This document shows, piece by piece, positions 37,792 to 51,600 of a stretch of DNA of 64,000 nucleotides (the stretch's first letter is position 1; every line of letters starts with the position of its first letter). Below the pieces are notes generated by a model, which saw only the letters and a program-made list of their open reading frames with translations, had not been told where the DNA came from and did no database searches. The DNA lies in the NCBI RefSeq assembly GCF_014930455.1, contig NZ_JAAIYO010000006.1, forward strand, positions 310,001 to 374,000. The letters are read 5' to 3'. The position numbers and the translations under genes are program-made. The DNA is from Corallococcus soli (GTDB lineage Bacteria > Myxococcota > Myxococcia > Myxococcales > Myxococcaceae).

Positions 37792-38038
37792 GACCCGTCT
37801 CCTCCGCTCTGGCTGCCTGAATCCATCCCACCGCACGCCCGACAGGAGCGCAAAGCCCTCCGCCCTGTCCAGACATAGACGGCGGGATGCGCCATCGATT
37901 GCATTGTGGTGGTGCGTCAGGCGCCCTCCCCCGCCGCAAGCGGGCGACCGCACGACAGTCCACTGCCAGACACGTTAAGGTGGTCCCCCTCTGCCGGAAA
38001 GCCGCATTCGTACGGGCCCGGTGCTGGAGCCTTCCATC

Positions 38039-40396
38039 ATGTCGCGGTCCATCCGGGCGGTCTGGTCGCTCGTCGTGCTCACCACCGTCGTGTCGCTGTC
38101 CGCCTGTGGTTCGGAGGACCCGGGGACGCAGGGGCCGGTGTTGCCGGCGGTCACGCTGCGCGCGGCGACGGTGGGCGCGCCCTTCGAGCACGTGCTGACC
38201 GCCTCCGGGGGCAAGGCGCCCCTCACCTATTCGGTGGGCGCGCTGCCGCCGGGCTTCTCCTTCTATGGAGACACGGGCCGGCTGGTGGGGCCCGCCACCG
38301 AAGCGGGCGAATGGACGCTGACGGTGGGCGTGCGCGACGCGAAGGGCGCCCAGCAGACGCGGAGCTATTCGCTGAAGGCGTGGCCGGTGCCGGCCGTCGC
38401 GACCGTGTCGCCGCTGCCGGACGCGACGGCGGGCAGCGCCTATACGTTCACGTTCACGGCCACCGGGGGGGCGCCGCCCCTGACCTGGTCGCAGGCGGGC
38501 GGCGCGCTGCCCTCGGGGCTGACGCTGTCCGGCGACGGGGCGCTGACGGGCACACCGCAGGGGCCCGCGCTGTATGAGTTCACGCTGCGGGTGGAGGACG
38601 CCAACGGCGTCCGCGCCGAGTCCGTGCTGCGGCTGCCCCTGCGCACCCCGAACGGGGACCTGCCGGACGGCGGGCCGGTGACGGACGCGGGGACGGACGG
38701 TGGGACCCAGCCGGACGGCGGGACGACGGACGCTGGCCCGGTGGTGTCCGTGCCCCTGAAGGTGGGCAACTGGAACATCGAGTGGTTCGGGGACACGACG
38801 CCCGGCAATGGTCCGGACAACGAGCCCCTGCAGTTGGCCAACGCGACGGCGGTCATCGCGGACGCGGGGCCGGACGTGATGGGCGTGGCGGAGATCATCG
38901 ACGTGGCCCAGTTCAACGCGCTGAAGGCGGGGCTGCCCGGCTACGACGGCTTCCTCGCGAACGACTCCGTGCGGGTGGGCGGCGAGTACTACTACTACGG
39001 CGCCGCGCAGCAGAAGGTGGGCGTGCTGTTCAAGACGGACGCGGTGCAGGTGCTGGGGGCGAACGTGGTGCTGGCGTCCTGCTCCAGTGATTTCGCCGGG
39101 CGGCCGCCGCTGCGCGTGGACCTGCGGGTGACGCGGGGGGCCACGCAGGTGGACCTGACGGTGATGGTGCTGCACATGAAGGCGTTCGCGGACGCGGATG
39201 CGTATTCGCGGCGCCAGTCCGCGTCGGAGTGCCTCAAGAGCTACCTGGACACGAACCTGCCCACGCAGAAGGTGATGGTGCTGGGGGACTGGAACGACGA
39301 CGTGGACAGGTCCATCTACGCGTCCCAGACGTCGCCCTTCCAGAACCTGGTGGCCGACCCGGCGCGCTACAAGTTCCTCACCCAGCCGCTGTCGGAGGCG
39401 AACGTGAGCTCCACGGTGAGCAACAGCCAGTTCATCGACCATCAGCTGGTGACGAACGAGCTGGTGCCGTACCACGTCGCGAACTCCACGGTGGTGCTCA
39501 AGCCGGCCATCTCCAGCTACCGGAGCACCACGTCCGACCACTACCCCATCTTCAGCCGCTTCGACTTCGGCACGCTGGTGCAGGCGCGCAGCGTGAAGGT
39601 CACGGCGCCCAACGGCGGCGAGACGCTGTCGGCGGGCAGCACGTTCGCCATCACCTGGACGTCGAGCAACGTGTCGCAGGTGAACGTGCAGTATTCGTTG
39701 GACGGCACGGTGTGGCGCGACGTGGCGACGAACGTGGCGGCGGCGAGCGGGCGCTATACGTGGACGGTGCCGAGCGAGTCCTCCACCACGGCGCGGGTGC
39801 GGGTGGCGGACGCGACGCGCGCGGACGTGGCGGACCTGAGTGATGGGGCGTTCACGATGACGCGGCCAACGCAGCAGGTGTTCATCAACGAGTACCTGGC
39901 ACAGCCGGTCAACGGGCCGGCTGGAACGCCGGACTACGACCAGCAGTTCGTGGAGCTCTACAACGCGGGGGCGGGTTCGGTGGACCTGAGCGGCTGGGAG
40001 CTCCACGACGCGAAGTCGTTTTCGGGCGCGGATGCGGCGCGACACACGTTCGAGCAGGGCACGGTGCTGCCGGCGGGCAAGGGGTACGTGGTGTACTCGG
40101 GCTTCACGGCGCTGCCGCCAGGGGCGACGTACGCGACCGTGTCCAACGGGGGCCAGGGTCTGAGATTCGACCGGGGCATCAACCAGAATGGCGCGGGCGA
40201 CTCGGTGTACCTGGTGCGCGCGGACGGCACGGTGCAGGACAGCCATTCGTATGCGAGTCCGCCCATGGATGTGTTCCAGGGCTGGTCGTTCAACCGGAAG
40301 CCGGACAGGAGTGCCACGGGGTCCTGGGGCCTCTGCTACGACCTGGCGTCCTACATCGCGACCCCAGGACGCAGGGCGGACGGCAGCGCGTTCTGA
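38039..40396 (+). CDS. Extracellular nuclease-like lipoprotein: putative Ig repeats, EEP domain, lamin-tail domain
   Basis: Exported lipoprotein (lipobox-like VSLSACGSE) of 785 aa with a modular layout. Two putative-Ig (He_PIG) repeats occur at about residues 35-205 (ASGGKAPLTYSVGALPPGFS, ATGGAPPLTWSQAGGALPSGLTLSGDGALTGTP). After a PDGG-rich linker comes an EEP nuclease domain: KVGNWNIEWFG, DVMGVAEIID, VMVLHMKAF, VMVLGDWNDDVD, QFIDHQLV and TSDHYPIFSRF, so metal and catalytic residues are retained. An Ig-like region with GGETLSAGSTFAITWTSSNVS follows, and a lamin-tail domain ends the chain (VFINEYLAQP, QFVELYNAGAGSVDLSGWELHD). The arrangement resembles ExeM/NucH-type secreted DNases. The ATG at 38039 has GGAG 10 nt upstream. 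Confidence 0.9.
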   Translation: MSRSIRAVWSLVVLTTVVSLSACGSEDPGTQGPVLPAVTLRAATVGAPFEHVLTASGGKAPLTYSVGALPPGFSFYGDTGRLVGPATEAGEWTLTVGVRDAKGAQQTRSYSLKAWPVPAVATVSPLPDATAGSAYTFTFTATGGAPPLTWSQAGGALPSGLTLSGDGALTGTPQGPALYEFTLRVEDANGVRAESVLRLPLRTPNGDLPDGGPVTDAGTDGGTQPDGGTTDAGPVVSVPLKVGNWNIEWFGDTTPGNGPDNEPLQLANATAVIADAGPDVMGVAEIIDVAQFNALKAGLPGYDGFLANDSVRVGGEYYYYGAAQQKVGVLFKTDAVQVLGANVVLASCSSDFAGRPPLRVDLRVTRGATQVDLTVMVLHMKAFADADAYSRRQSASECLKSYLDTNLPTQKVMVLGDWNDDVDRSIYASQTSPFQNLVADPARYKFLTQPLSEANVSSTVSNSQFIDHQLVTNELVPYHVANSTVVLKPAISSYRSTTSDHYPIFSRFDFGTLVQARSVKVTAPNGGETLSAGSTFAITWTSSNVSQVNVQYSLDGTVWRDVATNVAAASGRYTWTVPSESSTTARVRVADATRADVADLSDGAFTMTRPTQQVFINEYLAQPVNGPAGTPDYDQQFVELYNAGAGSVDLSGWELHDAKSFSGADAARHTFEQGTVLPAGKGYVVYSGFTALPPGATYATVSNGGQGLRFDRGINQNGAGDSVYLVRADGTVQDSHSYASPPMDVFQGWSFNRKPDRSATGSWGLCYDLASYIATPGRRADGSAF

Positions 40397-40445: not shown

Positions 40446-41090
40446 ATGACTTCGCGACCCCGTGCGTTGAGCGCGGATCCGGTGTGGAGGCGCTTCACGG
40501 CCGTGGCGCTGTGCGTGTGGCTGTCGGCCTGTGGGACGACCCGTGCGGCGGTGGCACCGGCTCCGGAGGAGCTTCCGCGTCTGGTGCTGCTGCTGCGGGA
40601 GGCCCCGGACGGGAGCTTCACGCAGGAGTGGCGTCCGGCACAGGCGTCCGAGCTTGCCCGCTACGTGCAGGCGGAGCAGGGCCGGCGCATCGTGCGGACC
40701 GCGCGCTCCGTGCGGGATTGCGATGCGGAGAACCGTGAGTGCATCCGGGAATGCATGAGCCGCCCGCTGTCTTCCGACTTCAGCCACGTCACGAGCAGGG
40801 GCGGGCTTGGAGGCAAGGAGAGGTATTGCCGGGGCCGATGCCAGCAGCCCTACCGGGACTGCGTCGAGCTTGAAAGGCTCCGTCCGCAGGAACTCTCTTC
40901 CACGGAAGCCGCTTCCGACTGGGCCCGGCGCAACCAGCGCTCCATCCTGGTGGGAAGCGTGGTCATGATCGCAGGAGTGGTGTTCGTCGTTGTCTCCGCG
41001 GGCGCGGGGCTCATCGTGCTCGCCCCTGCCTTGCTTCTCACGGAGTCATTCGTGTCCCCGGAGCAACAGCTCGTGGAGAGCGCGCCATGA
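40446..41090 (+). CDS. Array lipoprotein A1 (first of four tandem copies)
   Basis: Lipoprotein of 214 aa and no recognised family. Parts in order: signal peptide with lipobox VWLSACGTT; a conserved stretch APEELPRLVLLLREAPDG, EWRPAQASELARYVQAEQG, ARSVRDCDAE; a Cys-rich variable segment with two CX3C motifs (ECIREC, YCRGRC) and a later Cys; a Gly-rich hydrophobic stretch (about residues 165-195, VGSVVMIAGVVFVVVSAG); and a short variable tail. It appears anchored by lipid at one end and able to insert a hydrophobic segment at the other. The stop overlaps the B1 start (ATGA). The 5' end differs from the other three copies up to about codon 15. GGGTGGAC precedes the ATG but lies in the 3' arm of a possible hairpin (40418-40441). 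Confidence 0.8.
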   Translation: MTSRPRALSADPVWRRFTAVALCVWLSACGTTRAAVAPAPEELPRLVLLLREAPDGSFTQEWRPAQASELARYVQAEQGRRIVRTARSVRDCDAENRECIRECMSRPLSSDFSHVTSRGGLGGKERYCRGRCQQPYRDCVELERLRPQELSSTEAASDWARRNQRSILVGSVVMIAGVVFVVVSAGAGLIVLAPALLLTESFVSPEQQLVESAP

Positions 41091-41686
41091 TGGACTACTT
41101 CGACAAGCTGCAAGTGCTGGGCGTGCACGGAGAAGAAAGCCAGTCCGCCAAGGAGAAGGAGGCGTTCCATTTCGCCATGGATGCCATCCACTTCATCATG
41201 GCCACGGGGCAGGCACACGACTTCGAGGACTACATCCAGAGCATGAAGGCCCATGCTCCCCCTCTTGCCATTGCGCGGTTCGCTACACGGGCGGAGGCCG
41301 AGGAATGGTTGAAGGCCCAGAAGCGCCCTCCTGACTCCGCCTGCATCCTCATCGGGGATCAATACTTCACCGTGCTTCACAGCAGCGCCAAGGGATGGAG
41401 CCACCTGGGCCCCCTGGACAGCCTGGAGTACTACCTCGCGGACATGGCCAACGACGGGCCCAAGCCCTCGGGGCTGTCCTTCGAGTCCAAGGCGAAAGCG
41501 GAGGCCTGGCTCCACCAGCAGCCCACGCCCCCGCAGCAGGTCGTCGTCATGATTGCTGGCGCTCCGTTCCTAGCCGCCTACCACCACCGCATCGACTACC
41601 GCGTCCTCTATCCCCTGCCCCCGCCCACGCCTCCTGCATCGGATGTTCTTGAGGCGCCTCGCGACGATGGTCCTGATGCGGGCTGA
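41087..41686 (+). CDS. Array protein B1
   Basis: Soluble protein of 199 aa, no signal peptide or membrane span, no recognised family. It has a helical N-terminus (FDKLQVLG, EKEAFHFAMDAIHFIMATGQ, DFEDYIQSMK) followed by two related units: PLAIARFATRAEAEEWLKAQKRPPDSACILIGDQYFTVLH-type and PSGLSFESKAKAEAWLHQQPTPPQQVVVMIAGAPF-type segments (key shared residues F, AEAxWL, PP, I(A/G)xxF, H). The C-terminal 80 residues, from LADMANDGPKP on, are almost identical in all copies and end in a Pro-rich PLPPPTPPAS. The start overlaps A1 by 4 nt. The end overlaps A2 by 11 nt. Confidence 0.8.
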   Translation: MMDYFDKLQVLGVHGEESQSAKEKEAFHFAMDAIHFIMATGQAHDFEDYIQSMKAHAPPLAIARFATRAEAEEWLKAQKRPPDSACILIGDQYFTVLHSSAKGWSHLGPLDSLEYYLADMANDGPKPSGLSFESKAKAEAWLHQQPTPPQQVVVMIAGAPFLAAYHHRIDYRVLYPLPPPTPPASDVLEAPRDDGPDAG

Positions 41687-41943
41687 CGCCGTGTGGAGGC
41701 GCCTCACGGCTGTGGCGCTGTGCGTGTGGCTGGCGGCCTGTGGGACGACCCGTGCGGCGGTGGCACCGGCTCCGGAGGAGCTTCCGCGTCTGGTGCTGCT
41801 GCTGCGGGAGGCCCCGGACGGGAGCTTCACGCAGGAGTGGCGTCCGGCACAGGCGTCCGAGCTTGCCCGCTACGTGCAGGCGGAGCAGGGCCGGCGCATC
41901 GTGCGGACCGCTCGCTCCGTGCGGGATTGCGATGCGGAGAACG
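41423..41943 (+). repeat. Conserved junction block 1 (B1 end to A2 front)
   Basis: About 520 nt running from the LADMANDGPKP codons of B1 through the stop into the CDAEN codons of A2. It is nearly identical to the blocks at 42641 and 43859. Identity drops on both sides, so the block borders the variable cores. Confidence 0.9.
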
Positions 41944-42299
41944 TGGAATGCGTCCGGCGGTGCATGAGCACCCCACTGCCTCGTGGGTATGGCCATGTCA
42001 CCAAGCCGCGTGGAAAAGGGGGGAAGGATGAGCACTGCGTCAAACAGTGCGATCCGGCCTACCTGGACTGCATTGAGTTGGAGAGGCTTCGTCCCCAAGA
42101 GATGTCCTCCACAGGGGAGGTGTCGGACTGGGCGAGTCGTCACCGCAAGTCACTCCTGGTGGGGAGCGTGGTCGTCATCGCGAGTGTCGTTTTCGTTGTC
42201 GTGTCCGCAGGGGCTGGGCTGATCGTCCTGGCGCCGACGCTGTTGCTGACGACGTATCCAGGAGAGTTCACACATCCCGTGGCGGAGATCCTTCCATGA
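41676..42299 (+). CDS. Array lipoprotein A2
   Basis: Second lipoprotein copy, 207 aa. The lipobox (VWLAACGTT) and the first ~100 residues are nearly identical to A1; the region after CDAEN diverges (CVRRCMSTPLPRGYGHV, HCVKQCDPAYLDC), then the hydrophobic Gly-rich stretch and tail TTYPGEFTHPVAEILP. All CX3C cysteines are kept. The start chosen, ATG 41676, overlaps the B1 stop by 11 nt and is conserved in A3 and A4; ATGs at 41643 and 41667 are in frame alternatives. No strong ribosome-binding site is visible, so reinitiation after B1 is likely. Its middle resembles A4, while its tail resembles A3. Confidence 0.8.
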   Translation: MRADAVWRRLTAVALCVWLAACGTTRAAVAPAPEELPRLVLLLREAPDGSFTQEWRPAQASELARYVQAEQGRRIVRTARSVRDCDAENVECVRRCMSTPLPRGYGHVTKPRGKGGKDEHCVKQCDPAYLDCIELERLRPQEMSSTGEVSDWASRHRKSLLVGSVVVIASVVFVVVSAGAGLIVLAPTLLLTTYPGEFTHPVAEILP

Positions 42300-42904
42300 C
42301 GACGAAGCTCTTCGACCAGATTGAGGTGCTCGGGCAGATCGCGCTCGACGATGCGCCCTCCACCCCGGGAAGCGAGAAAGCGCTCCGCCTCGCGGCGGAT
42401 GCCATCCGATTCATCGAGACCTCCGGACAGGCCGACGACTTCGAGGACTACGTCCAGGGCCTCGACGCCAATGCGCCCCCCCTTGCCATTGCCCGGTTCG
42501 ACACGCGGGACGAGGCAGAGGCGTGGTTGAAGGCCCAGAAGCGTCCTCCTGACTCCGCCCGCATCCTCATTGGAGATCGCTACTTCATCGTGCGTCACAG
42601 CCGCGCCAAGGGATGGAGCCATCTGGGCCCCCTGGACAGCCTGGAGTACTACCTCGCGGACATGGTCAACGACGGGCCCAAGCCCTCGGGTCTGTCTTTC
42701 GATTCCAAGGCCGAAGCGGAGACGTGGCTCCACCAGCAGCCCACGCCCCCGCAGCAGGTCGTCGTCCTGATTGCCGGCGCCCTGTTCCTGGCCGCCTACC
42801 ACCACCGCATCGACTACCGCGTCCTCTATCCCCTGCCCCCGCCCACGCCTCCTGCATCGGATGTTCTTGAGGCGCCTCGCGACGATGGTTCTGATGCGAG
42901 CTGA
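42296..42904 (+). CDS. Array protein B2
   Basis: Second soluble copy, 202 aa, starting in a 4-nt overlap with A2. The N-terminus (LFDQIEVLGQIALD, PSTPGSEKALRLAADAI) is of the type shared with B3, not B1. The middle (EAWLKAQKRPPDSARILIGDRYF, AKGWSHLGPLDSLEYYL) is of the type shared with B1. From LADMVNDGPKPSG the C-terminus is the common one, with two substitutions (V for A, L for P in AGALF). Such chimeric pattern is direct evidence of exchange among copies. Function unknown. Confidence 0.8.
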   Translation: MTTKLFDQIEVLGQIALDDAPSTPGSEKALRLAADAIRFIETSGQADDFEDYVQGLDANAPPLAIARFDTRDEAEAWLKAQKRPPDSARILIGDRYFIVRHSRAKGWSHLGPLDSLEYYLADMVNDGPKPSGLSFDSKAEAETWLHQQPTPPQQVVVLIAGALFLAAYHHRIDYRVLYPLPPPTPPASDVLEAPRDDGSDAS

Positions 42905-43161
42905 CGCTCTAGGAATGCGCCTCACGGCCATGGCGCTGTGCGTGTGGCTGGCGGCCTGTGGGACGACCCGTGCGGCGGTGGCACCGGCTCCGGAGGAGCT
43001 TCCGCGTCTGGTGCTGCTGCTGCGGGAGTCCCCGGACGGGAGCTTCACCCAGGAGTGGCGTCCGGCGCTGGCGTCCGAGCTTGCCCGCTACGTGCAGGCG
43101 GAGCAGGGCCGGCGCATCGTGCGGACCGCTCGCTCCGTGCGCGATTGCGACGCGGAGCACC
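42641..43161 (+). repeat. Conserved junction block 2 (B2 end to A3 front)
   Basis: Second copy of the junction block, same length as the first. Includes a local change around the A start (CGCTCTAGGAATGCGC instead of CGCCGTGTGGAGGCGC) that introduces an extra in-frame ATG also seen in block 3. Confidence 0.9.
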
Positions 43162-43517
43162 TGGAGTCCATGCGGGAATGCTTGAGCCGCCCGCTTCCTG
43201 CTGGGTACGGGCATTTCCGCAACCCGCGCGGAAAGGGAGGGAAGGAGTCGTACTGCAACGGCAAGTGCCTTCAGCCCCTCTTGGACTGCGCAGAGTTGGA
43301 GAAGCTCCGTCCCCAAGAGCTGTCCTCCGTGACGGAGGCTTCAGGCTGGGCAAGCCGTCATCGCGAGTCACTTCTCATCGGGAGCGTGGTCGTCATCGCG
43401 GGTGTTGTCTTCGTCATCGTGTCCGCGGGGGCAGGTCTCGTCGTCCTGGCCCCTGCCCTGCTCCTGGCAAGCTTCGACGGTGACTCCGCGCTGCCCCTGG
43501 CAGAGGCTCTTCCATGA
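42894..43517 (+). CDS. Array lipoprotein A3, with one motif cysteine replaced
   Basis: Third lipoprotein copy, 207 aa. It has the same signal peptide and lipobox as A2, and the conserved front half. In the variable part the first CX3C motif reads ESMREC: the first cysteine, present in A1, A2 and A4, is serine here, while the second motif (YCNGKC) and the later Cys are intact. The hydrophobic stretch is LLIGSVVVIAGVVFVIVSAG. The tail ASFDGDSALPLAEALP resembles A2. The ATG at 42894 overlaps the B2 stop by 11 nt; an ATG at 42915 immediately before the hydrophobic core is also possible. Stop overlaps B3 start by 4 nt. Confidence 0.8.
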   Translation: MRADALGMRLTAMALCVWLAACGTTRAAVAPAPEELPRLVLLLRESPDGSFTQEWRPALASELARYVQAEQGRRIVRTARSVRDCDAEHLESMRECLSRPLPAGYGHFRNPRGKGGKESYCNGKCLQPLLDCAELEKLRPQELSSVTEASGWASRHRESLLIGSVVVIAGVVFVIVSAGAGLVVLAPALLLASFDGDSALPLAEALP

Positions 43518-44122
43518 CCCGACTCCTCGACCAGATTGAAGTGCTTGGGCAGATTCTGCTCGACAAGGTTCCCGCGACGCCTGGAAGCGAAGAGGCGATT
43601 CGCACAGCCGCGACCGCCATTCAATTCATCCAGGACACCGGGCAGAGCTACGACTTCGAGGACTATGTCCAGAGCATCGAAGCCCACGCGCCACCTCTTG
43701 CCATGGGTCGGTTCGCGACCCGGGAAGAGGCCGAGGCTGGGATGAATGCTTGGAGACGGCCTCCCGCAGTGGCCTTCGTGCTGATCGCGGATGTCTACCA
43801 CTCCGCCATGTACATCCCGTCGCTCGGGAAGGTCCGGCTGGTCCCACTTCCCGTCATCCTGGAGCACTACCTCGCGGACATGGCCAACGACGGGCCCAAG
43901 CCCTCGGGGCTGTCCTTCGATTCCAAGGCCGAAGCGGAGGCCTGGCTCCACCAGCAACCCACGCCCCCCCAGCAGGTCGTCGTCCTGATTGCCGGCGCCC
44001 CGTTCCTGGCCGCATACCACCACCGCATCGACTACCGCGTCCTCTATCCCCTGCCCCCGCCCACGCCTCCTGCATCGGATGTTCTTGAGACGCCTCGCAA
44101 CGATGGTCCTGATGCGGGCTGA
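43514..44122 (+). CDS. Array protein B3
   Basis: Third soluble copy, 202 aa. The N-terminus (LLDQIEVLGQILLD, PATPGSEEAIRTAATAI) pairs with B2, but the middle (AFVLIADVYHSAMYIPSLGKV, ILEHYLADMAND) pairs with B4. The first internal unit is degenerate relative to B1/B2 (AEAGMNAWRRPP in place of AEEWLKAQKRPP). The C-terminal block is the shared one. The start overlaps A3 by 4 nt and the end overlaps A4 by 11 nt. Function unknown. Confidence 0.8.
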   Translation: MTRLLDQIEVLGQILLDKVPATPGSEEAIRTAATAIQFIQDTGQSYDFEDYVQSIEAHAPPLAMGRFATREEAEAGMNAWRRPPAVAFVLIADVYHSAMYIPSLGKVRLVPLPVILEHYLADMANDGPKPSGLSFDSKAEAEAWLHQQPTPPQQVVVLIAGAPFLAAYHHRIDYRVLYPLPPPTPPASDVLETPRNDGPDAG

Positions 44123-44379
44123 CGCCGTTGGGATGCGCCTCACGGCCATGGCGCTGTGCGTGTGGCTGTCGGCCTGTGGGACGACCCGTGCGGCGATAGC
44201 ACCGACTCCGGAGGAGCTTCCCTGGCTCGTGCTGCTGCTGCGGGAGTCTCCGGACGGGAGCTTCACCCAGGAGTGGCGTCCGGCGCAGCCGTCCGAGCTT
44301 GCCCGCTACGTGCAGGTGGAGCAGGGACGGCGCATCGTGCGGACCGCGCGCTCCGTGCGCGATTGCGACGCGGAGAACA
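43859..44379 (+). repeat. Conserved junction block 3 (B3 end to A4 front)
   Basis: Third copy of the junction block. The half-copies at the array ends are the A1 front (about 40490-40735) and the B4 end (about 45065-45285). Confidence 0.9.
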
Positions 44380-44732
44380 TCGAATGCGTCCGGCGGTGCA
44401 TGAACACCCCACTGCCTCGTGGGTATGGCCATGTCAGGCTCCCTCGCGGGGCCGGAGGGAAGCATGCGTACTGCGAGAAACAATGCCAGCAGCCCTATCT
44501 GGACTGCACCGAACTTGAAGAGCGCCAATCGCAAAAAATCTCTTCCGTGGAGGCCGCTTCTGCCTGGGCCCAGAACAACCAGCGCGCCATCCTCGTGGGA
44601 GTCGTGGTCGTGATCGCGGGAGTCAGCTTCGTCGTGGTCTCGGCGGGCGCGGGAGTCATCGTGCTCGCGCCGGCCCTGCTGCTCGCGGAATCTGGCATGC
44701 CTCCGGAACACCTCGTGGAGAGCACACCATGA
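44112..44732 (+). CDS. Array lipoprotein A4
   Basis: Fourth lipoprotein copy, 206 aa. Lipobox VWLSACGTT as in A1, with several substitutions in the front half (ELPWLVLLLRESPDG, AQPSELARYVQVEQG). The middle CVRRCMNTPLPRGYGHV is A2-like, while the segment QQPYLDC, AASAWAQNNQRAILVG and the tail ending EHLVESTP are A1-like. Both CX3C motifs are intact (ECVRRC, YCEKQC). The ATG at 44112 overlaps the B3 stop by 11 nt. The stop overlaps the B4 start by 4 nt. Confidence 0.8.
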   Translation: MRADAVGMRLTAMALCVWLSACGTTRAAIAPTPEELPWLVLLLRESPDGSFTQEWRPAQPSELARYVQVEQGRRIVRTARSVRDCDAENIECVRRCMNTPLPRGYGHVRLPRGAGGKHAYCEKQCQQPYLDCTELEERQSQKISSVEAASAWAQNNQRAILVGVVVVIAGVSFVVVSAGAGVIVLAPALLLAESGMPPEHLVESTP

Positions 44733-45292
44733 TGCACTTCTTCGACAAGCTGGAGGTCCTTGGAAGGCATCTGGAAGCCAGCGCATCGGACAAGGAGAAG
44801 GAGGCCCTCCGCTTCGCCATGGACTCCCTCTACTTCATCATGAGCACCGGGCAGTCCCTCGACTTCGAGGCCTACATCCGGAGCGAAGAGGCCCTCGCGC
44901 CCCCCCTCGTCATCGCCCGATTCGAGACACGACAGGAAGCGGAGGCGGCCCTGAACGCACGCCGTCCGCCACTCGACCAGGCCTATGTGTTGGTGGCGGA
45001 TGACTATTATTCCGCCATGTACAACCCGAAGAACGGTCGGACCCATCTGGTTCAACGCGGTCTCCCGGAGCACTACCTCGCGGACATGGCGAACGATGGG
45101 CCCAAGCCTTCAGGGCTGTCCTTCGATTCCAAGGCGGAGGCAGAGGCCTGGCTCCGCCAGCAACCCACGCCCCCGCAGCAGGTCGTCGTCATGATTGCCG
45201 GCGCCCCGTTCCTGGCCGCCTACCACCACCGCATCGACTACCGCGTCCTCTATCCCCTGCCCCCTACCACGCCTCCTGCATCGGAGACGTGA
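44729..45292 (+). CDS. Array protein B4, end of the array
   Basis: Last soluble copy, 187 aa. The N-terminus (MMHFFDKLEVLG, DKEKEALRFAMDSLYFIMSTGQ) pairs with B1; the middle (AYVLVADDYYSAMYNPKNGR, EHYLADMAND) pairs with B3. The common C-terminal block is intact up to PLPPTTPPAS, where it ends with ET instead of the 14-residue extension seen in B1-B3, because no further A copy follows. It converges with the outer-membrane barrel gene 15 nt downstream, with no obvious terminator hairpin between. Confidence 0.8.
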   Translation: MMHFFDKLEVLGRHLEASASDKEKEALRFAMDSLYFIMSTGQSLDFEAYIRSEEALAPPLVIARFETRQEAEAALNARRPPLDQAYVLVADDYYSAMYNPKNGRTHLVQRGLPEHYLADMANDGPKPSGLSFDSKAEAEAWLRQQPTPPQQVVVMIAGAPFLAAYHHRIDYRVLYPLPPTTPPASET

Positions 45293-45307: not shown

Positions 45308-45961
45308 CTACAGACGGATCTGCAGGCGCACGCCGGGCTGGATCCAGACGTGGAGCGACTTCTGGTCGCTCGGGATGTCGATGCTGCGCTCCGGCTCCTC
45401 GAACACCTGGGCGGAGAGGTCCGAGTACTGCCCCAGCGACGCCGAGATGTACGGCCCCACCGCGATGGACCGGGTGAGCTGCAGGTCCACGCCGAAGTGC
45501 GCGTGCCCCAGGTCGAACCCCTTCAGGCCCAGCTTCGCGAGCGTCGGATCATTCCCCACCTTCAGGGACCCCATCTCGTAGCCCACGCCCACGCCCAGCC
45601 AGGGGCTCACGAACCCCTCCGGCGCGAAGTGGTAATCCAGGTCCACGCCAAACCGCAGCACCCGGCTCGAGCACTCGGTCGTGTCCGTGCACCCGTCAGG
45701 CTTCGCGATGCCGTACTGGAAGTAGCCGCCCAACGAGAGGTGCCGGTTGAAGAAGTAGGAGAGGTCCACCTGCGGCGCCACCGTGTTGCCAAACGTCTCC
45801 GACAACGACATGCCCTCCGCCGCGTCACCCACCGGGATGCCGTACGCGCCGCGCACGCCCAGCGCCAGCCCGGAGCCCGAGGACGCCTCCTGCGCCAGCG
45901 CGGGCGCCGCCAACAAGGAGAGGGACATCACCAGCGAGGGGATGAAGGGTCGAGCAGTCAT
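45308..45961 (-). CDS. Outer-membrane beta-barrel protein
   Basis: Exported 217-aa protein with a cleavable signal peptide (MTARPFIPSLVMSLSLLAAPALAQEA). The mature chain has alternating amphipathic strands typical of an eight-stranded OmpW/OmpA-like barrel: GLALGVRGAYGIPVGDA, APQVDLSYFFNRHLSLGGYFQYGIA, VLRFGVDLDYHFAPEGFVSPWLGVGVGYEMG and HAHFGVDLQLTRSIAVGPYISASLGQYSDL. It closes with a final strand VWIQPGVRLQIRL. An extracellular-loop-like CTDTTEC could form a disulphide. The ATG at 45961 is chosen because the open frame continues far upstream without signal features. It diverges from the lipoprotein gene at 46354. Confidence 0.85.
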   Translation of the reverse strand: MTARPFIPSLVMSLSLLAAPALAQEASSGSGLALGVRGAYGIPVGDAAEGMSLSETFGNTVAPQVDLSYFFNRHLSLGGYFQYGIAKPDGCTDTTECSSRVLRFGVDLDYHFAPEGFVSPWLGVGVGYEMGSLKVGNDPTLAKLGLKGFDLGHAHFGVDLQLTRSIAVGPYISASLGQYSDLSAQVFEEPERSIDIPSDQKSLHVWIQPGVRLQIRL

Positions 45962-46155
45962 GTCGTTCACCGGAGAAGAAGGCCGTCGTCCGACGGCGGA
46001 TGGGTGCGGCGGCGTCGCGCATTGCAAGGGCACGGCCACCGCGCACCCGGAGTCTCGCACCCGGGCGTGTTCCCATCGTCCATCCGCCTCTCCCCACGAG
46101 GAGGATTCCTCCCACGCGAGGGATGCGCCGCCCCGTCCCCCTCTTCCCTGGGTCA

Positions 46156-46169
46156 TGACAGGCATGTCA
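46156..46169. promoter_or_regulatory. Palindrome TGACA-N4-TGTCA, copy 1
   Basis: TGACAGGCATGTCA is a 5+5 inverted repeat in the 392-nt gap between the barrel gene and the divergent lipoprotein gene. A second copy follows 65 bp away. Likely operator-type site for a dimeric regulator; the regulator is unknown. The rest of this gap shows no coding frame. Confidence 0.5.
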
Positions 46170-46220
46170 GGACCGGACGGCTGGCGGGTGCGTCCCCCTG
46201 TCCCGCGCACGCCCGGAACC

Positions 46221-47552: not shown

Positions 47553-48347
47553 CTAGAAGCAGCGCGACCGGCCCGACACGCTGACCTGGCTCGAGTTGCC
47601 GCCCAGGTACCAGTAGCCGTTGCTCTGGAAGGTGCGGACGTACTCTCCGCTCCCCTCGAACTTGCCCTTCACGTACGTCAGGGCGCAGGAGCGGTTCGTC
47701 ACCGCGCCCAGCAGGGCCGCGGAGTTGCCCTGGTTCCAGGCGACTTCGTTCTCGTAGGAATCCACGTTGATGCAACGGGCACGGGCGCGCAGGCTGGTCT
47801 GGTTGGTGTTGCCGCTCAGGTACCAGGAGCCGCCTTCGACATAGGCGTGGACCCACTCGCCTCCGCCATTGAGCTTGCCGGCGAGCCCCGTCAGGAAGCA
47901 CACGCGGCCGGTCGCCGTCCCCATGTACGTGGGGTAGCTGGACGCCTGCGTCCATTCGTACTGGACCGAATAGCCATCCACCGCGGGGGCGCAGCGCGAC
48001 GCCCCGTGGATGCCCGACTGCGCGGAGGCGCCGCTGAGATACCAGGAGCCCCCGCTCGCGTAGATGTCCACCCGCTCACCGCCGCCCTCGAAGTCGCCGC
48101 CCACGCGGGTCAGGAAGCAGGCCTGGCCCGTCGTGGCACCCAGCGGCGTCGCGACCTTGCCCTGCGACCAGGTGTACTCGCCGGTCGCCGTCAACTCCTG
48201 CTCCTGGCCCGCCGTCGTCGCGGACGCGTCCTCCATGACGACCGCGGCGGTCGGCTCGGACAGCTCGGACGGAAGGTCCTCCGGGCCACAGCCCCACAGC
48301 ACGGCGGGCATCGAGAGGGCGAACAGGACGTGACGGAGCTTGGACAT
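47553..48347 (-). CDS. Secreted Cys-containing protein with three ~65-residue repeats
   Basis: A 264-aa lipoprotein (signal peptide and lipobox-like AVLWGCGPE). After an acidic/Ala spacer come three copies of one unit: W(S/T/N)QG..., LGxxTGxxCFLTxVxGxFEGGGExV, GGSWYLSG and a closing RC, at about residues 58-125, 128-195 and 197-264. Each unit has two Cys (CFLT and RC), likely one disulphide per repeat. The repeats look like shallow beta-domains such as those of lectin- or SH3-like secreted proteins, but I recognise no named family. It shares its 275-nt upstream region with the TPR kinase gene. Confidence 0.8.
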   Translation of the reverse strand: MSKLRHVLFALSMPAVLWGCGPEDLPSELSEPTAAVVMEDASATTAGQEQELTATGEYTWSQGKVATPLGATTGQACFLTRVGGDFEGGGERVDIYASGGSWYLSGASAQSGIHGASRCAPAVDGYSVQYEWTQASSYPTYMGTATGRVCFLTGLAGKLNGGGEWVHAYVEGGSWYLSGNTNQTSLRARARCINVDSYENEVAWNQGNSAALLGAVTNRSCALTYVKGKFEGSGEYVRTFQSNGYWYLGGNSSQVSVSGRSRCF

Positions 48348-48529
48348 GATTGGGTTTCCTGGTGTTGAGATGGGTTTGAAGCCTGGAAGCGCCCGGGGTC
48401 GGGACCACCGTGCATCTCTTCCGTGGCGTGGGAGTGCTTGAGCAAGGCGTGTGCCGGACCTGCCGGACGGGGCGCGGCGGCGCGTCTCCCTCGGGAGGGA
48501 GCCCCAGCCCCCGTGAAGCGCTCGCCTCC

Positions 48530-48581
48530 TGGCACACCGGAGGGCCGCGCATGGCACACCGGGGCCCGTGCCACCGTGCCA
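48530..48581. promoter_or_regulatory. TGGCAC/GTGCCA cluster upstream of the TPR kinase
   Basis: TGGCACACCGG occurs at 48530-48540 and again at 48552-48562, exactly 22 bp apart, followed by GTGCCA at 48568-48573 and 48576-48581. Two direct sites and two inverted sites in 52 bp suggest an operator or enhancer. It lies 42 nt upstream of the kinase start and in the divergent gap to the three-repeat protein. Spacing does not give a proper sigma54 -24/-12 pair. Confidence 0.5.
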
Positions 48582-48622
48582 CCTCCGGGGCGACAGGCGG
48601 GGGCGTTTGATAGCCTGTGCCC

Positions 48623-51600
48623 ATGGCGCCTCCCGGAAGCGACGAGCCCCTCCTCGCGCCGGTGGACCGGCCCACCCTGGCGGATGAGACACCGGCCCGC
48701 GCCGACGCTGGCGGCACGCGGGAGGCGGCCTCCGCCGTCGCGTGGGAGCGCTACGAGCTGCTGGGGCCGCTGGGCCGTGGCGGCATGGGCGAGGTCCACC
48801 GGGCGCGGGACCGGCGGCTGGGGCGCGTGGTCGCGCTCAAGTTCATCCAGGGCGCGGACCCCGAGCGGGCCATGCGCTTCCTCCAGGAGGCCCGGGCCCA
48901 GGCGCGCATCGACCATCCGAACGTCTGCAAGGTCTTCGAGGTCGGGGAGGTGGGCGCGAAGGCCTACATCGCCATGCAGCTCGTGGACGGCGAGCACCTG
49001 GACCGCGCCGCCCGGAGCATGTCCCTGCCCGAGAAGGTCCGCGTGATGAAGGAGGCCGCCGAGGCGGTGCACGAAGCCCACCGGCTGGGCGTCATCCACC
49101 GCGACCTCAAGCCCTCCAACATCCTGGTCACCCAGGCCCCGGACGGCCGCCCCACCCCCATCCTCGTGGACTTCGGGCTGGCGTACGAAGCCGGCCTGGG
49201 CCACGGCCTCACCGCCACGGGCGAGGTGATGGGCACGCCCGCGTACATGTCACCGGAGCAGGCCCGGGGCGACCTGCGCGCCATCGACCGGCGCAGCGAC
49301 GTCTACAGCCTGGGGGCCACGCTCCACGAGCTGCTCACGGGCTCCCCGCCCTTCACCGGCGCCACGCCGCTGGAGACGCTGACGCAGGTGCTCCACGAGG
49401 AGCCGGCGCCCCTGCGCGCGAAGGTGCCGCACCTGGACGGGGAGCTGGAGACGCTGTGCCTCAAGTGCCTGGCGAAGGAGCCCGGGCAGCGCTACGCCTC
49501 CGCGCGGGCGCTGGCGGAGGACCTGGGACGCTACCTGGAGGGGACGCCCATCCTCGGGCGGCGCCCCGGCCTGGCGTACCGGCTGAAGCGGGCCGCGCGC
49601 AGACACCGGGCGCTGGTGGCCGTCTCCAGCGTGTCGCTGCTGGGCATGCTGCTGCTCGCGGGCTTCGGGGCGCGGTCGTGGCTGTCGGAGCGGGACCTCC
49701 AGACGCGGACCGCCGCGCGCGTCCGGCTGGCGGAGCACCTGGGGCAGCAGGTGCAGGAGTTCGAGTGGTTCGTGCGCGCGTTCCAGGCCCTGCCCCTGCA
49801 CGACACCCGCCCTGAACAACGGCGCGTCCGCGAGCGGCTGGCGGCCCTGGCGGCCGAGCGGCATGACCTGGGCGCCCAGGGTGACGGGCTCGTCCAACTG
49901 GCGCTGGGGCGCGGCCTGCTGGCGATGCACGAGTTCGAGCAGGCCCACCGGGCCCTGACACGCGCGAAGGAGGCGGGCGTCGACACGCCGGTGCTGCACT
50001 ACGCGCTGGGACGGGTGCTGGGGGAGCGCTACCACCTGGCCCTGGAGGACGCGCGGCGCAGCGGCGGCGCGGCGTGGGTGGCGCAGCGGCAGGGAGAGCT
50101 TGAACAGGCGTGGCTGGGGCCCGCGCTGCAATCGCTGGAGCGCAGCCGGGGCCTGGCGCTGGAGTCCCCGCGCTACCTGGAGGGGCTCATCGCCTTCTAT
50201 CGCAGGGACTACGCCGCGGCGGAGCGGGCCGCGCTGGAGGCCGTGGCGCAGGCGCCCTGGCTGCCGGAGGCCCGGAGGCTCGCGGGGGACGTCGCGTACG
50301 CGCGGGCCATGGACCTGCTGGAGCGGGGCGACTACGCGCTGGCGCGGGCCGGACTGCTGGAGGCCGTCGACCGCTACGAGCGGGCGGTGGAGGTGGGCCG
50401 CAGCGACGCGAGGGGCTACGAGGCGCTCGCGGAGGCCTGGCTCCAGGTGTCGGAGCTGGACCGGCGCGAGGGGCGCTCCCGGAGCGCGTCGCTCGGACAG
50501 GCCGAGGCCGCCGCGGACCAGGCCCGGCTCGCGGATCCGGACCGGGCCTCCGGCCACACCCGCAAGGCCCAGGTGCTGATGAACCAGTACCGGCGCGTGA
50601 ACTTCCAAGGGGAGCCCGACGCCCGTGGCGCCCAGGCCCTGCTCGACGCGTGGCTGCTCGTCGCCCGGCGGGCCGTGGAGTTGGATCCTCGCGACGTGCT
50701 CGCTTACGACTCGCTGGGGTACGCCTTCTTCATGAAGGGGCTGCGACAGGCCCGTGCCCGGGAGGCCCCCGAGGCCTCGTGGGAAGAGGCGTCGACGTGG
50801 CTGTCCCGCGCCATTGAACTCCAGCCGCGCTACCCGTGGGCGCTCAACGACCTGGGGCTCGTCCACCGCTGGCGGGGCAACTACCAGCGCGAACATGGCC
50901 GGGACCCGATGCCGGACTACGCGCGGGCGGAGCGCTCCCTGCGCGAGGCGGTGCGGGCGGATCCGAAGTACCTGTTCGCCCACTCGAACCTCACCGAGCT
51001 GTACGCCGCGATGGCCTCCTACCGCGCGTCGCGGGGAGAGTCCCCGGAGGGGGAGCTTCAGCAGGCGCTGGCGTCCGGCGAGGCCGCGCTCGCCCTGGAC
51101 GGCCGGTTCCACTCCGCGCTGAACCACCTGGCGGAGGCGGAGCTGACGCGGGCCCGCTTCCTGTTCGAGACCGGCAGCCCCCCGGGCCCGTCACTCGCGC
51201 GGGTGCTCCAGTTCGTGGAGCGCTCGCTGCGGCTCAACGCCACGTCCGACCGCGCGCACCTGCACCGGGCCAACGCGCACCTGCTGGAGGCGCGACAGGC
51301 GATGCGGGAGGCGCTGGACCCGACGGAGGCGCTCGCGCGGGGACGCGGGGCGCTGGCGGAGGCCTACCGCCACGCTCCGGCCTGCGCGGACTGCCGCGTC
51401 CTGGGCGCGACGCTGGAGCTGACGGCGGCGGAGCACGCGAAGCACCAGGGACGGGCGAGCCTGCCGCACCTGCGCGAGGCCCTCGCCCAGGCGCGACAGG
51501 CGGTGGCGGCGTATCCCTACCCGGAGACGCACCTGGCCCTGGCGCGCGCGTGCTGGCGCCTGGCGCGCGAGGTGCCCCCCTCCTCCGTGGAGGCCCAGGT

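Follow-up and report, generated by a model that had tools for sequence, protein, structure and literature searches.

A window of 64,000 nucleotides from the predatory soil bacterium Corallococcus soli (contig NZ_JAAIYO010000006.1, positions 310,001–374,000, the whole stretch analyzed here) contains, at window positions 40446–45292, a fourfold tandem array of two-gene units, each encoding a predicted lipoprotein (A) followed by a soluble protein (B). We consider it probable (roughly 0.7) that this array represents four allelic units of a polymorphic toxin–immunity system, whatever its target, with B most likely the immunity protein and A its toxin. On the best reading of its sequence, A would belong to an unnamed family of small, polymorphic lipoprotein toxins that resembles SitA6 in size, gene order, and evolution without being homologous to it. 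Two hallmarks of polymorphic toxin–immunity systems were found: the variable end of the candidate toxin co-varies with the candidate immunity protein while the putative delivery part is conserved, and the candidate immunity gene is kept without the candidate toxin gene, but not the reverse.

Organization of the array

Open reading frame (ORF) and repeat analysis confirmed four A–B units with a period of 1.21 kb, all eight genes lying on the + strand with gene spacings of 1209/1218/1218 and 1218/1218/1206. The 4-nt ATGA overlap described in the initial annotation is present at every A–B junction, and the same or a nearly identical junction was found again in many relatives. The B–A junctions, initially given as overlapping by about 11 nt, overlap by 11 nt (ATGCGGGCTGA) if A2–A4 start at MRADA, the start favored by the sequences of relatives; alternative upstream ATG codons at 41643, 42861, and 44079 would instead produce a 44-nt overlap. 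The genes of the array are as follows.

40446–41090, + strand: A1, lipoprotein, candidate toxin (ORF analysis and A-family alignment)
41087–41686, + strand: B1, soluble, candidate immunity protein; ATGA overlap with A1
41676–42299, + strand: A2, lipoprotein, candidate toxin
42296–42904, + strand: B2, candidate immunity protein; modeled with AlphaFold2
42894–43517, + strand: A3, lipoprotein, candidate toxin; second Cys of the cysteine motif replaced by Ser
43514–44122, + strand: B3, candidate immunity protein
44112–44732, + strand: A4, lipoprotein, candidate toxin
44729–45292, + strand: B4, candidate immunity protein with a shorter C-terminus

Mosaic structure and two genealogies

Among the four units, A codons 31–90 are 91–95% identical, with 0.07–0.11 synonymous differences per site, and B codons 121–180 are 92–96% identical (0.11–0.28 per site); from A codon 91 to B codon 120, identity is 44–69% and synonymous differences amount to 0.35–0.66 per site. 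The nonsynonymous/synonymous ratio is approximately 0.4–0.8 in this central segment versus 0.13–0.2 in A codons 61–90 and B codons 121–180 (A codons 31–60 contain too few changes for a ratio). The variable cassette is the C-terminal half of A together with the N-terminal half of B, and its edges, approximate in the coordinates below, lie inside both genes.

40704–41434, + strand: variable cassette 1
41434–41913, + strand: homogenized scaffold (B1 C-module plus A2 N-terminal part)
41913–42653, + strand: variable cassette 2; nearest cassette in C. llansteffanensis
42653–43131, + strand: homogenized scaffold of like kind
43131–43871, + strand: variable cassette 3; nearest cassette in G007, a Myxococcaceae metagenome-assembled genome
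43871–44349, + strand: homogenized scaffold of like kind
44349–45077, + strand: variable cassette 4; its A half is closest to copy 1 and its B half to unit 1 of C. carmarthensis

Distance correlations (Mantel) were calculated for 15 complete A–B pairs from the same site in Corallococcus relatives. Distances in the C-terminal part of A correlated with those in the N-terminal part of B (r = 0.89), and those in the N-terminal part of A with those in the C-terminal part of B (r = 0.64); neither the two N-terminal parts (r = 0.16) nor the two C-terminal parts, given the N-terminal part of B (r = 0.09), were significantly correlated. Cassettes 2 and 3 have their nearest relatives in other species, whereas each unit's flanks are closest, or nearly so, to those of the other three. 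There are thus two genealogies: the cassette halves share one that crosses species, and the flanks follow another. An independent A–B tandem in another genus (L169) has the same kind of mosaic; there the tail is conserved and the cysteine region varies, which points to the cysteine hairpin of A as the specificity part.

An origin of the array by assembly artefact or chance was ruled out, the copies being strongly diverged. Because of the synonymous differences within the cassette, and because related arrays were assembled independently in relatives, the array is not an assembly duplication in its host genome (9.44 Mb, 68 contigs).

Copy number and one-sided loss of A

The array occupies a site defined by two conserved neighbors, and its third-position GC content (0.77–0.82) compares with 0.94 and 0.89 in these neighbors. 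The neighbors and one further gene of the window are as follows.

38021–40396, + strand: left neighbor and left edge of the site; large predicted lipoprotein, exonuclease-like by our reading
45308–46210, − strand: right neighbor and right edge of the site; outer-membrane beta-barrel by our reading
47553–48692, − strand: secreted protein by prediction, in which a C-F-L-T...G-G-G-E...S-W-Y-L-S-G motif recurs about three times

Copy number at this site is not fixed among close relatives (one genome sampled per species; those sharing the site are mostly named Corallococcus), with 0, 1, 2, or 4 copies present. In 13 same-genus relatives the site is occupied, with 0–2 A copies, and in two it is empty. 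Six relatives carry one A–B unit (G015, G009, G012, G007, G013, and G001) and one carries two (G004); G006 has two units, the first with a degraded A, and G002 and G005 have a stand-alone B followed by an A–B unit, the right neighbor in G005 lying approximately 5 kb away. In G010, A is broken by a stop at the signal peptide and B is intact; in G003, A is likewise broken or truncated beside an intact B; and G011 retains only B. The empty sites of G008 and G014 are clean: just 71 nt separate the neighbors, and neither A nor B has left a trace. Every partner loss or breakage at the site affects A.

The same asymmetry appears across the family. A profile search of myxobacterial genomes revealed a large paralogous family, with A and B each present in 36 of 86 family genomes and 7 of 26 genera. 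Single genomes contain as many as 26 A and 38 B matches, and the totals come to approximately 284 and 444, respectively, in a count for which the A and B profile thresholds differ (1e-6 and 1e-4) and some B genes are split into several matches. A cleaner count, with fragments merged, comes from seven complete genomes, which hold 75 A and 105 B loci. B lies next to 71 of the 75 A loci, always in the order A–B and on the same strand, leaving 34 B and 4 A loci unpaired. Two of the lone A genes (L164 and L165, genome G075) are interrupted by near-identical inserted transposase-like genes, a third (L166) is missing its tail, and the fourth is a match at E = 0.01 that is probably spurious; no intact A without B occurs in these seven genomes. 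The genes upstream of 20 stand-alone B loci gave no A match. Stand-alone immunity genes described elsewhere look alike (PMC5361080, PMC10539506).

Features of proteins A and B

The initial annotation described A as a lipoprotein with twin CX3C motifs. The lipobox (LxAC) and the CX3C pairs are both present, but the full motif is wider and mirror-symmetric, C-X6-C-X3-C...C-X3-C-X6-C, with one of these cysteines absent from A3. The lipobox cysteine is invariant in 34 of 34 A proteins, and lipidation is predicted from sequence. A is 207 aa long and ends, as initially noted, in a hydrophobic, Gly-rich tail (peak mean hydropathy of 2.8–2.9 over 19-residue windows); this region, downstream of the cysteine motif, contains invariant W, G, F, L, and P residues. 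Across the 34 proteins these and the cysteines are the only invariant residues, and no catalytic residue is conserved. The AlphaFold2 model of A is weak, with a predicted local distance difference test (pLDDT) score of 59; it places helices at both cysteine segments and a long hydrophobic helix, and was too poor for a fold search to be interpreted. A sequence search of the PDB returned nothing convincing for A, the weak similarity to Tim10 (E = 0.36) arising because the CX3C pattern is common to both. The A copies in the window carry alanine at position +7 from the lipobox cysteine, a residue lacking in some relatives; in Myxococcus xanthus, +7 alanine is an extracellular-matrix sorting signal that sends FibA to the matrix (PMC3222651).

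B is soluble by its sequence, as initially noted, with no signal, no hydrophobic segment, and a maximum hydropathy of 1.0–1.4. The AlphaFold2 model of B2 (pLDDT 82) has an N-domain of three helices together with two beta-alpha-beta-beta-beta modules, which bears out the duplicated core described in the initial annotation. A fold search with B gave no convincing match, the best Z of about 5 involving the helical part, with SH2-like and epimerase pieces at Z < 5, and the only low E-value in a PDB sequence search came from a designed repeat protein matched over 19 residues. In agreement with the initial annotation, neither protein belongs to a recognized Pfam or NCBIfam family; searches of Pfam, NCBIfam, and PADLOC yielded only sub-threshold short-motif matches (MerB, Cauli_VI, Arm-DNA-bind_4).

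Related genes occur outside the window. The host genome carries four dispersed single A–B pairs (L005–L008, at C9:93180, C4:141560, C1:1001985, and C16:39537), in which a single-module B of approximately 125–130 aa stands beside a shorter A; by our reading, these pairs are flanked by apparently ordinary metabolic genes. It also carries a lone B-like gene with an in-frame stop and no A found beside it (L013, C5:202326–202886, − strand). In other genera, L109 and L110 encode B proteins of approximately 255 aa with two full copies of the N-domain plus module; B modules have therefore been duplicated in more than one way.

Comparison with SitA6–SitI6 and other systems

Eight loci of the host genome score above the NCBIfam cut-off for SitA6 (TIGR02269, SitA6 family polymorphic toxin lipoprotein), and among them, outside the window, are two tandem SitA6–SitI6 pairs (L176, C11:158000–164500; L177, C1:552000–559500), with SitI6 assigned by position and, in our reading, a double CxxC motif. 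In the C11 pair, SitA6 shows full identity over its first 90 residues and 67–90% identity in the C-terminal part, while SitI6 is 48–83% identical with 97% identity over the last 60 residues; the C1 pair behaves in the same way, with one further conserved stretch inside SitI6. Thus, a named toxin–immunity family in the same genome shows the architecture and evolution of the window's array. Like A–B, SitA6–SitI6 comprises a small lipoprotein (approximately 210–235 aa) with a Cys-rich part and a soluble partner encoded directly downstream, and occurs in this genome as tandem pairs with a frozen–variable–variable–frozen mosaic. These two tandem pairs are a study object in their own right.

The initial annotation proposed an effector/antidote array with SitBAI as the nearest parallel. 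The mosaic, the cross-species cassettes, the varying copy number, the empty site, the retention of B, and the SitA6–SitI6 mosaic all strengthen this proposal, but it does not extend to homology with SitA6: the hhalign probability for the A family against SitA6 is 2.5%, and A has no match to TIGR02269. Whereas SitA6 has an AHH-type nuclease end (PMC8546572), no such end and no invariant His were found in the 34 A proteins, which have the hydrophobic tail in its place. The other SitA families (SitA1/2, 3, 4, 5, and 7) share with A–B a lipoprotein with a downstream partner gene, many alleles per genome, and a distribution so far found only in myxobacteria. By description they are set apart by N-terminal escort domains of approximately 375 aa and nuclease ends (PMC8546572), whereas A, at its length, has no nuclease match and no SitB-like gene upstream. 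The direct sequence comparison covered SitA6, whose proteins in the host genome are as short as A. A has the lipobox and downstream partner gene of SitA-type toxins, the partner's cognate immunity role being putative. The EsaG and TipC immunity arrays of type VII secretion systems likewise consist of tandem paralogues that have diverged through recombination between conserved blocks (PMC9484751), but these are arrays of immunity genes only, in Firmicutes, whereas the window's array repeats whole toxin–immunity units.

Proposed model and alternative explanations

We propose that A is a secreted lipoprotein toxin in which a conserved N-terminal part would be followed by a periplasmic helical hairpin stapled by six cysteines and a hydrophobic, Gly-rich C-terminal segment of approximately 35 residues. 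B, translated directly after A, would be its soluble cytoplasmic cognate immunity protein, and the C-terminal half of A would be matched to the N-terminal half of B within one cassette. The near-identical flanks (the B C-module plus the next A N-terminal part) could recombine and thereby add, delete, and swap cassettes, giving every strain a set of its own. Several A proteins would be made in a given strain, which its own B proteins would protect, while a neighbor without the corresponding B would suffer damage, in the simplest case once A has been passed to it by outer-membrane transfer. By analogy with the SitA toxins, delivery could occur through TraAB outer-membrane exchange (PMC5562445, PMC8546572). 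TraAB alleles have been reported for Corallococcus, Archangium, Hyalangium, and Myxococcus (PMC6372800); in the host genome, a search for TraA via PA14 identified six PA14 places, none of them clearly TraA. Damage to the inner membrane appears the likeliest action of A, because it lacks a conserved catalytic residue but has a conserved hydrophobic tail. Cognate A–B binding, toxicity, and immunity are inferred from these sequence patterns. The reverse assignment, with B as toxin and A as guard, was rejected because B alone is common.

Several observations weigh against this model. A soluble cytoplasmic immunity protein is unusual for a membrane toxin, which is the weakest point of membrane action; A may therefore enter the cytoplasm or have a different target. 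The structural model of A is poor, and the +7 alanine, which in the window's copies might direct A to the matrix, is not shared by every relative. The A/B family is missing from most of the Myxococcus-like genomes (g41) sampled. Finally, the two cassette halves are adjacent on the DNA, and linkage alone could produce part of their correlation; the more informative point is that the cassette edges lie inside both genes and leave its two halves joined.

For a soluble B to protect, at least part of A must be accessible from the cytoplasmic side, and we therefore give substantial weight, though short of even odds, to a variant in which A acts in the cytoplasm as an unrecognized enzyme or inhibitor and the tail only aids inner-membrane crossing. 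B has neither signal nor membrane segment, and SitA toxins act in the cytoplasm as nucleases (PMC8546572); however, A has no conserved catalytic residue and no match to a nuclease or other domain. This variant overlaps with the favored reading, since both are toxin–immunity readings. A non-toxic role for A, as a surface or matrix lipoprotein for recognition or a variable antigen with B as chaperone or regulator, seems improbable: the +7 alanine of matrix lipoproteins fits it, and coupled expression and co-variation could equally describe a chaperone–client pair, but A is often lost while B is retained, the reverse of the outcome expected for a client-specific chaperone, and the same mosaic occurs in genuine SitA6–SitI6.

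An anti-phage or abortive-infection module, in which a membrane effector A is checked by B and variation reflects a phage arms race, would suit the patchy, hypervariable, multicopy family and the pairing of a membrane-prone effector with a cytosolic partner. We regard it as very unlikely, given that PADLOC matches are weak and to single members only, a lipoprotein signal on such an effector is unexpected, the dispersed pairs of the host genome lie among apparently metabolic genes, and widespread B without A has no obvious role. Amplification of a metabolic envelope module for dosage, also raised in the initial annotation, is scarcely credible: tandem amplification and translational coupling would agree with it, but the copies are diversified rather than identical, cassettes cross species, sites are empty in some relatives, and loss is one-sided toward A.

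Returning to the toxin–immunity reading, we raise only tentatively, as a doubtful but specific extension, that A represents a new expansive class of myxobacterial kin-discrimination toxins. In such a class, a lipoprotein with a Cys-stapled helical hairpin and a membrane-inserting tail would be passed between cells by outer-membrane exchange, damage the inner membrane, and be neutralized from the cytoplasmic side by a soluble two-module B, with the cassette spanning the gene border shuffled in tandem arrays.

Significance

Known SitA toxins are reported as nucleases, and a membrane-active A, if true, would constitute a new killing mode. A further unannotated family of lipoprotein toxins, numbering up to tens of loci in a genome, would widen the barcode of self-identity in social bacteria. 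The trans-species cassettes, homogenized flanks, empty site, and stand-alone immunity genes of close relatives provide a natural series in which the gain, swap, and loss of such units may be followed.

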